DNA of 64,000 nt from Streptomyces sp. NBC_01217 (GTDB taxonomy: Bacteria; Actinomycetota; Actinomycetes; Streptomycetales; Streptomycetaceae): NCBI RefSeq assembly GCF_035994185.1, contig NZ_CP108538.1, positions 248,001-312,000 of the forward strand, given 5' to 3'. A program made the position numbers and the translations under genes. Of this stretch, positions 47,999 to 50,119 are shown piece after piece (positions within the stretch are counted from its first letter, which is position 1; the number at the start of each line of letters is the position of its first letter). The notes under the pieces were generated by a model. That model was not told where the DNA came from. It worked only from the letters and a program-made list of their open reading frames with translations, and ran no database searches.

Positions 47999-48049
47999 GG
48001 TCGCGACCGCTCCCTGTTTCTTCTCGTCCGCTTCCGCTCTCGCCACTTC

Positions 48050-48076
48050 GACGAAACAGCGCACCGGACTGTGAGG
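48050..48076 (-). promoter_or_regulatory. ECF41-type promoter driving the sigma factor gene
   Basis: On the minus strand CCTCACA (48076-48070), 16 bases, then CGTC (48053-48050). The ECF41 consensus as known is TGTCACA-N16-CGTC. It lies 52 bases from the sigma ATG. Confidence 0.72.
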
Positions 48077-48087
48077 TCGGCGCTTCG

Positions 48088-48114
48088 CCTCACATTTCGC
48101 GGGCCCACGTCGTC
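48088..48114 (+). promoter_or_regulatory. ECF41-type promoter driving the DUF6220 gene
   Basis: CCTCACA (48088-48094), 16 bases, then CGTC (48111-48114). Hexamer, spacing and tetramer are identical to the element on the opposite strand. It lies 56 bases upstream of the ATG at 48170. Confidence 0.75.
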
Positions 48115-48169
48115 GGACTGCCGAGACACTACCGAGCCACCGCCGCGAGGCAGAAGAGGAGACCGCGTC

Positions 48170-48617: not shown

Positions 48618-49901
48618 TCACAGGCGCGCGTGGTGCTCGATGTCCTCTCTGAACTTGGTGAGAGCCTGGTCGGTGAGGGTGGGCCGGGTCTCGGCGATGG
48701 CAGCGAGGTAGTCCTCGGTGCTGGCCGGTGCGCCTTTGCGGTCGGCTACTTCGCGTTCGAATGCGGCGTGGGAGCCTTTGCGGGCGGCGAACTCGATGTC
48801 GGCGGGTGTGAACATCTCACTGGCTGACACCAGTTGGTGCAGCGCTATGCCGCTGACGGCCGGGCCGAGATAGCGCTGCCAGATCGCCGCCCGTGCTGTC
48901 GGATCGGGCGGGCCGACCGGAATGACGTAGTCGAACCGGCCCGGGCGCAGGAATGCCGGGTCGAGGGAGCGCACGGAGTTGGTGGCGCAGATCAGCAGGC
49001 GGTTGTCGTGGTCGCGGAAACCGGGAATCAGCTTGAGCAGCTCGTTGGTGACTCCGTGCCCGGGATCGACAGCCTGACCGGACCGGATGCCTGCGATCTC
49101 CTCGACTTCGTCGATGAACAGCAGAACGGATTCCAGCTCCCCCAGATCGGCGAACGTTTCCCGCAGCGAGGCGGCCAGGCCGCCGGCGGCGCCCTCCGTG
49201 AGCCGGGAGGGAAAGAGTTCCACGAACGGCCAGGCCAGCCGGGATGCAACGGCCTTGGCGAAACTGGTCTTCCCGGTGCCCGGCGGGCCGAAAAGGATGA
49301 CGGACTTCGGTGGCGTCACCCCGTACCGATCGGCCAGCACGGGCTCCGCCAGCGGCAGCACTATCCGCTGCTCGATGGCTTCCTTCTCTCGCTCCATGCC
49401 CGCCAGAGCGCCCCAGAGCCCCTGCGGCAGGACCCTCCCACCGAGCTCGGTGAGCAGGCCCGCGTCACTTGCGCCGAGATGCTCGACCTTCTCGTAGAAG
49501 ATCAACCCGTCGCGAGCGCGATAGCCGGAGTTCTCCAGCGCCGTGATCCCGGTCGCCCCCGGGGCAAGCAGCGCACTGATCCGGCGTACCCCCTGGATGC
49601 GCAGACGCCTCTCGACCTCCGCGATCAGGGCGCTCCCGATTCCGCGGTTGCGCCACATACCGGCGAGCGCCATCAGCATGATCCAGGCCCGCTCCCCCTG
49701 GGCCTGCGCCACCGCCATGCCGACCAGATCCTCGCCGACCACAGCGACGACCACGGTCCCGCCGGTCCGGGCCGCAGCCATTGCCTCGGAGAGCGGAAAG
49801 ACCGGAGGCATGTCGTCGGCCTGCCGGTCCTGATCCCATATCTGGATCGCGCGGTCCAGGTCGTCGTCACGGAAGTCCCGCAATCGCCACGTCGGCATCA
49901 T
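48618..49901 (-). CDS. GNAT acetyltransferase fused to an AAA+ ATPase
   Basis: A 427-residue two-domain protein. Residues 1-140 form a GNAT domain with the acetyl-CoA motif MWRNRGIGSALI (82-93) and GYRARDGLIFYEKV at its end. Residues 160-427 form a classical AAA+ module: Walker A GPPGTGKTS (205-213), Walker B LLFIDEVEEI (260-269), sensor-1 LLICATNS and arginine finger region LRPGRFDYV. It resembles CDC48/FtsH-like ATPases without a protease. Such a fusion is unusual; the ATPase may remodel a target that the GNAT domain acetylates. Confidence 0.82.
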   Translation of the reverse strand: MMPTWRLRDFRDDDLDRAIQIWDQDRQADDMPPVFPLSEAMAAARTGGTVVVAVVGEDLVGMAVAQAQGERAWIMLMALAGMWRNRGIGSALIAEVERRLRIQGVRRISALLAPGATGITALENSGYRARDGLIFYEKVEHLGASDAGLLTELGGRVLPQGLWGALAGMEREKEAIEQRIVLPLAEPVLADRYGVTPPKSVILFGPPGTGKTSFAKAVASRLAWPFVELFPSRLTEGAAGGLAASLRETFADLGELESVLLFIDEVEEIAGIRSGQAVDPGHGVTNELLKLIPGFRDHDNRLLICATNSVRSLDPAFLRPGRFDYVIPVGPPDPTARAAIWQRYLGPAVSGIALHQLVSASEMFTPADIEFAARKGSHAAFEREVADRKGAPASTEDYLAAIAETRPTLTDQALTKFREDIEHHARL

Positions 49902-50119
49902 CACCACCCTGTCGGCGGACCGCCACGGCCTACCCGGCGCCCTGGCCACGGGCTGCCCGGCCGCCGCTCCGTTCCTGCTCCCTCCCAGTCATTCTCCGCG
50001 CCGGTCAGACACCCGTCGACCGGAACCGCGGCGGGCACGTCATCCGCGGGCCTGACAGTTCGAGGCAGGGGCTGTCTCAAATGACGGCCTCGGTGCCGGT
50101 GCGTTGCTGCTGCCCGGCA

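Follow-up and report, generated by a model that had tools for sequence, protein, structure and literature searches.

ECF41 sigma factors are widely distributed and carry a built-in regulatory domain, a fused SnoaL-like extension of ~100 aa that regulates activity, together with a WLPEP linker motif (Wecke 2012, PMC3426412). As described there, they use TGTCACA-N16(+/-1)-CGTC promoters and have single neighbouring targets; ~30% of members have no neighbouring gene for a decarboxylase, oxidoreductase or epimerase (COE), so such a neighbour is not defining. Fewer than 20% of ECF41 loci in that account are divergent, and orphans are common in actinobacteria. Table 4 of the same paper gives, for the arrangement <ECF< >COE>, the motif at 36 of 55 ECF genes and 41 of 55 COE genes (PMC3426412).

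The locus analyzed here lies in a 64,000-nucleotide stretch of DNA, hereafter the window (Table 1). It resembles Ecf41Bli and Ecf41Rsp, as presented in PMC3426412, in combining sigma-2 and sigma-4 regions with a SnoaL-like extension, in its WLPEP-type linker and in a TCACA-N16-CGTC element before one neighbour, and it shares with ECF41 loci of that study divergent genes with the motif before both. Unlike the ECF41 systems described there, its predicted target encodes a small membrane protein and not a COE enzyme, and the -35 reads CCTCACA or, at related loci, CCTTACC where theirs reads TGTCACA, the first two bases being CC and not TG. Gene order also differs: 135 of our 160 loci, which were chosen by the membrane gene, are divergent, versus <20% of ECF41 in PMC3426412. 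Literature searches, whose scope stopped short of the ECF re-classification (10.1093/nar/gkaa1229) and of work on the SigJ SnoaL_2 domain (PMC5766207), returned no report of this membrane target. The twin divergent promoters highlighted by an earlier sequence-only reading of this DNA are present, and they represent a kind of switch already known from Table 4 of Wecke 2012; it is the membrane target and the partly re-coded promoter that appear to be new variants.

Table 1. Positions of the features of the locus within the window
Feature	Positions	Strand	Basis or detail
ECF41 (SigJ-like) sigma factor P0001, 317 aa	47045..47998	(-)	Pfam, NCBIfam, PDB match, motifs
Sigma-facing predicted promoter CCTCACA-N16-CGTC	48050..48076	(-)	-35 48076-48070, -10 48053-48050
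Separation of the two -35s	48077..48087	(.)	11 nt; start-to-start 12
Membrane-gene predicted promoter CCTCACA-N16-CGTC	48088..48114	(+)	-35 48088-48094, -10 48111-48114
Membrane-gene 5' region	48115..48169	(+)	conserved GAGACACTACCGA-type stretch and AG-rich ribosome-binding region
Four-span membrane protein P0002, 134 aa	48170..48574	(+)	predicted model, two alignments

P0001 is organized as sigma-2, WIPEP linker, sigma-4.2 and a C-terminal SnoaL_2 domain. Sigma-70 regions 2 and 4 matched PF04542 (E 3.3e-13) and PF08281 (E 1.6e-9), both above cut-off, and the extension matched PF12680 at residues 202-296 (E 3.4e-7; 31.2 bits versus a cut-off of 27). The protein also scored above the NCBIfam cut-off for the PRK09636 SigJ subfamily and aligned over residues 22-308 (E 7.7e-47) with SigJ of PDB 5xe7, presumably the Mycobacterium tuberculosis protein, which has the same domain order. 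WIPEP (94-98), DGGG (230-233) and NPEKL (304-308) are all present; DGGG and NPDKL-type motifs in the extension are what we take to be ECF41 family motifs. The ECF41 assignment of the earlier reading is thereby supported, and judged by its sequence P0001 is an ordinary SigJ-like ECF41 sigma. Its own genome holds 11 further matches of 25-41% identity, none close to P0001, and at one site two ECF41-like sigma genes (36-37% identity to P0001) stand in tandem (L043, G000:C1:476122-477904). Twin elements at these paralogues were considered and dismissed: among those scanned, only L045 (G000:C1:1712000-1720000) has TGTCACA-N16-CGTC close upstream on the sigma's side. At L045 an aldo/keto-reductase-like frame, labelled by eye, lies upstream of the sigma paralogue.

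The 171-bp gap at 47999-48169 is bounded exactly by the start of the sigma gene (47998, minus) and that of the membrane gene (48170, plus). The CCTCACA-N16-CGTC elements claimed for both strands of this gap were recovered at exact coordinates with a spacer of 16 in the plus and minus copies alike. Both contain the core TCACA-N16-CGTC with CC for TG, in agreement with the proposed nearness to the ECF41 consensus, and the -10 of the sigma-facing copy is 51 nt from the sigma start. On its own the short pattern TCACA-N16-CGTC is unremarkable and weak evidence, with 2 occurrences in the window versus 0.78 expected (21 of 100 shuffles reach 2) and 63 across the genome versus 13 for the reversed pattern. 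The full CCTCACA-N16-CGTC, for which a genome-wide search had been suggested, occurs four times in the 9.03-Mb genome and its reversed control not at all; two copies fall inside frames with coding-type composition, leaving the gap pair as the sole non-coding copies. Scanning with an extended consensus and up to 3 mismatches returned 8 sites versus 4 for the reversed control. The two in the gap were the only single-mismatch sites, and the remaining six have 3 mismatches, barely above the control's 4; a larger regulon in this genome was accordingly rejected.

Downstream of the membrane-gene element, the GAGACACTACCGA-type stretch would sit roughly where transcription of that gene should start. 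The pattern GAGAC..TA.CGATC (window 48115-48135 and homologous loci) is conserved at this presumed transcript start; read by eye, its opposite strand holds a TAnnnT box, a candidate housekeeping -10 of the sigma gene. Single-sequence folds hinted at a hairpin in the 5'-UTR before the ribosome-binding site, a candidate that was discarded after RNAalifold on 98 UTRs gave none (energy 0.0).

P0002 has no Pfam or NCBIfam family at E<=0.1, consistent with the suggestion that the target departs from the usual oxidoreductase, epimerase or decarboxylase. The DUF6220 label attached to it did not survive. P0002 is a small membrane protein like DUF6220, but the profile PF19728 has no match in the genome at E<=1 and is absent from the Pfam families matched by 23 P0002 homologues at E<=1. 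Four spans are supported by a predicted model of moderate confidence (pLDDT 71.3; helices 14-36, 42-67, 76-96 and 100-128), as that reading had them. Residues Q22, Q29, H46, W68, R76, Q91 and H103 are invariant in both alignments (A1, 23 sequences; A2, 34). In the model, H46 and H103 would lie on the same membrane face, near loops 37-41 and 97-99. This is probably the outer face, since those loops have no K/R and both termini and the middle loop have 1-2 each, a weak argument on charge. Bis-histidine haem-b four-helix membrane proteins, with conserved histidine ligands and bound haem, may be comparable: for P0002 four helices are predicted and H46/H103 are invariant (23 and 34 sequences), and the fold search returned nothing significant, generic bundles only. 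The genome has one clear copy, with one further match at E 0.117. Homologues number 1746 at E<=1e-3 in the protein database, of which the best 120 were listed; a match was found in 144 of 392 genus genomes at E<=1e-10, and the alignment profile matches 41 of 394 class genomes at E<=1e-6. At distant homologue loci L115, L315, L316 and L322 a multicopper oxidase gene directly follows the P0002-like gene, the two frames overlapping by 4 nt in L115, L315 and L316, and at L313 and L319 the homologue stands beside a divergent MarR-type regulator. The adjoining gene in the window (48618-49949, minus) fuses GNAT acetyltransferase and AAA ATPase domains in one 443-aa frame.

To follow the pair across genomes, 179 loci carrying a P0002 homologue, drawn from own, same-genus and same-class genomes and from the best 80 named records, were collapsed by identical 350-nt keys to 160 distinct loci, 63 of them named. 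Among the genera in the best 80 named records are Streptomyces, Kitasatospora, Actinacidiphila, Rhodococcus, Streptosporangium, Microbispora and Micromonospora. At three named loci (L188, Rhodococcus maanshanensis; L197, Rhodococcus oryzae; L246, Micromonospora sp. MP36) the membrane proteins are 74-85% identical to P0002, which suggests horizontal transfer or mislabelled records. The membrane gene is divergent to a sigma gene in 135 of the 160 loci, has a sigma co-directionally upstream in 14 and has no sigma nearby in 11. Genes beyond the pair are not conserved, the largest cluster covering 3 of the 118 and 3 of the 86 loci at which a neighbour was called, and the sigma/membrane pair is, on this comparison of neighbourhoods, therefore a self-contained, portable module.

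A membrane-facing element with N16-CGTC is kept in 127 of the 135 divergent loci, as CCTCACA in 67 and as CCTTACC in 60; nearly half of the branch thus has CCTTACC and not the CCTCACA noted in the earlier reading. Seven of the other eight have CCTGAC(A/G)-N16-CGTC facing the membrane gene, and L120, whose sigma is ~1 kb away, has no membrane-facing element. The sigma-facing element was found in 20 (regex) or 21 (strict form) of the 135 and is absent or altered in 114. Shuffled intergenic sequences gave chance expectations of 0.2 membrane-facing and 0.1 sigma-facing loci of 135. Since the membrane-facing copy is kept in 127 (plus 7) loci and the sigma-facing copy in 20-21, the membrane-gene promoter would be the conserved target and self-activation a lineage-restricted trait; the autoregulation that the sequence-only reading proposed has its element here and is not general. 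The -35 and -10 letters are conserved through how the loci were selected; outside them, the two sub-clades score 1.34 and 1.66 bits in the spacer and 1.10 and 1.57 over the 23 nt downstream, more than the 0.35 and 0.75 of the 70 nt upstream.

The room available for a second element was also measured. Using real start codons, at least 40 nt separate the sigma start from the membrane element in 63 of 130 scored loci (L059, L120, L174, L188 and L215 being left out of the 135), and 20 of these 63 have a second element. Across the 59 scored loci of the TTACC sub-clade, the median distance from sigma start codon to membrane -35 is 19 nt, less than the 27-nt element, so that a sigma-facing copy has no room, none of the 59 has one, and the sigma must there be expressed otherwise. 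A 4-nt overlap between the start of the sigma gene and the membrane promoter, once considered for this sub-clade, was abandoned, as it arose from extrapolated starts. The scarcity of the sigma-facing copy, even among loci with room, and the lack of space in most of the TTACC sub-clade would fit a single functional element facing the membrane gene, the other copy being a remnant, decayed or there by chance, with the sigma made from another (e.g., HrdB-type) promoter. We regard that alternative as rather unlikely: the copy here is a perfect 7+16+4 match where chance gives 0.1 in 135 loci, and the twins are spaced 10-12 nt start-to-start in 20 of 21 loci.

The same question can be put to related sigmas whose partners differ. 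The comparison set comprised 60 chosen loci among the matches listed, with sigmas 67-87% identical and not paired with the membrane gene; tblastn found no P0002 homologue in those 60 loci (20 + 40). Twin elements (spacer 15-17 allowed) occur at 12 of the 60, 11-14 nt apart in 9 of the 12, which again argues against a remnant. Pfam analysis of eight representative partners gave CMD, YceI, FMN_red/flavodoxin, SnoaL_4, FMN_red plus SnoaL_3, DoxX_2, LUD and one without a family; the remaining partners were labelled by motif, as 'other' (20 of 60) or as none (4). The DoxX-like partner (PF13564) at L272 resembles P0002 as a small membrane protein beside a same-subgroup sigma with CCTCACA on the partner's side. 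DoxX proteins have four spans; unlike that partner, the 23 P0002 homologues have no DoxX profile among their Pfam matches. At L121 (G225) an 87% identical sigma is divergent to a 111-aa hydrophobic protein with no Pfam match at E<=1e-4 and no element.

A quick tree was built from 210 sigma rows, best hits of <120 bits or spanning <230 residues having been dropped. Apart from L168, L166 and L120, the membrane-linked divergent sigmas fall into one 134-row clade (SH-aLRT 98), in which 127 rows are divergent beside the membrane gene and 7 are without it. An ECF41 sub-branch tied to a membrane gene, as had been suspected, is thus recovered. The clade lies within a set of sigmas that mostly diverge from enzyme genes, a topology pointing to a target swap in which the usual, mostly enzymatic partner of an ECF41 subgroup was exchanged for the membrane gene. 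Of the co-directional loci, 8 belong to a distant sigma clade, 2 to another and 4 to the subgroup outside the 134-row clade, long branches being flagged in this tree. The 10 with distant ECF41 sigmas (34-38% identity), 9 of them within 240 nt, imply that the membrane gene joined ECF41 sigmas more than once; in three tested, a Pyr_redox_2 oxidoreductase (2) or a short-chain dehydrogenase (1) lies upstream of the sigma.

The two -35 forms covary with the sigma itself. All 59 TTACC rows have K at position 175, within the recognition helix of sigma-4 (GRTPAACRQLASSARRR), and all 63 TCACA rows have R there; in other ECF sigmas we take this position to be a -35 contact. R175 is also found in all 60 other-partner rows and in all 8 divergent rows without the CCTCACA/CCTTACC form; co-directional rows have 11 R and 3 Q, and paralogues 5 R and 1 Q. 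Ten further positions split TTACC from TCACA rows at >80%, and only 175 is in the recognition helix. The linker motif W[LIVM]PEP is present in 63 of 63 TCACA, 40 of 59 TTACC and 60 of 60 other-partner sigmas. In the quick tree the TTACC rows group in a single sub-clade that includes L112; constraining the TTACC rows to stay together was not rejected (p-AU 0.919) and gave the better-scoring tree. L112 has the TTACC-type residues L54, T73, V126, L167, V205, M252 and V283 and differs from TTACC rows in R175, A61, A288 and in its promoter, which is of the TCACA form. L112 thus resembles an intermediate that preceded the switch. These data are suggestive of one sub-clade having replaced a TCACA -35 by TTACC while R175 became K. 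Because the R/K change maps to one branch, it would count as one event and not many, which is suggestive and not proof.

Loci at which the pair has been split separate the element from its gene neighbourhood. The element is retained by five membrane genes that have no sigma beside them (G012, G764, G767, G629 and G038), and all five genomes encode a 75-84% identical sigma elsewhere, that of G764 adjoining a second membrane homologue. Neither G765 nor G766 has the element at its membrane gene; a sigma match at E<=1e-60 is absent from G765, and the single one in G766 is 47% identical. A counter-pattern is seen in G376 and G383, with 68-70% sigmas and a membrane gene without element, and in G763 (L175), whose element is altered to CGTCACA and which lacks any sigma match at E<=1e-60. 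Numbers are small. The search for a sigma elsewhere took in nine of the 11 sigma-less loci; the other two, L115 and L170, whose genomes were outside it, have no element. Four of six relocated sigma copies retain a self-facing element (L301 and L303, CCTCACA; L302, CCTGACA; L307, ACTCACA), a further point against the remnant explanation, and L299 and L300 have none. Retention of the element at split loci, like the -35 change that accompanies a change in the sigma-4 recognition helix, is also difficult to reconcile with intergenic DNA serving another regulator, conserved through gene neighbourhood and not through the sigma. Conservation reaching into the presumed initial transcribed region (GAGAC..TA.CGATC) would suit such a regulator, which we nevertheless consider highly improbable.

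The membrane protein might also be more than a mere target and regulate the sigma as a membrane sensor or anti-sigma. ECF regulators are often membrane neighbours, and the pair is retained together in 135 of 160 loci, chosen as these were by the membrane gene. Against this, the cytosolic stretches predicted for P0002 (13, 8 and 6 residues) are too small for an anti-sigma domain, the protein also stands beside quite different ECF41 sigmas (34-38% identity), 11 of 160 loci have no neighbouring sigma at all, and some distant homologues have a multicopper oxidase or a MarR regulator for a neighbour. ECF41, moreover, has its own regulatory domain, as set out in PMC3426412. Regulation of the sigma by P0002 is, on balance, improbable, and we favour P0002 as the target.

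The element, its conservation, the clade, the target swap, the split loci and the sigma/promoter covariation were obtained by computation. From them we consider it quite probable that the locus is a two-gene ECF41 module whose sigma directs the divergent membrane gene and, in this lineage, itself. By analogy with studied ECF41 members, the SnoaL_2 domain would hold its own sigma inactive or tune it. Once active, the sigma would take RNA polymerase to the element before the divergent membrane gene, a conserved and probably the only other target, and in this lineage would also use the matching element before its own gene in positive feedback. Because the two -35s are 11 nt apart, two holoenzymes probably could not occupy both elements together, and the promoters would compete. 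The module probably arose when the usual partner of an actinobacterial ECF41 subgroup, mostly enzymes, was replaced by a four-helix membrane protein.

Partners of related sigmas (CMD, YceI, FMN_red/flavodoxin, DoxX, SnoaL and LUD among the eight representatives, one of which has no family) suggest that redox or quinone-type stress is what they share. Given these redox-type partners, the invariant histidines and the multicopper-oxidase coupling of distant relatives, P0002 is most likely an envelope protein in redox or electrophile defence. A fuller reading, a portable ECF41 module joining an unrecognised envelope redox protein to a naturally re-coded promoter (TCACA to TTACC with R175K), assumes two histidines on one membrane face and kinship to multicopper-oxidase-coupled membrane proteins, and is offered tentatively. 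If true, the two sub-clades would provide a natural pair of separable ECF41 promoter specificities. A large clade with one non-enzyme target and a recognition-helix change would offer a handle on ECF41 promoter specificity, and the same clade may serve as a handle on what ECF41 responds to.
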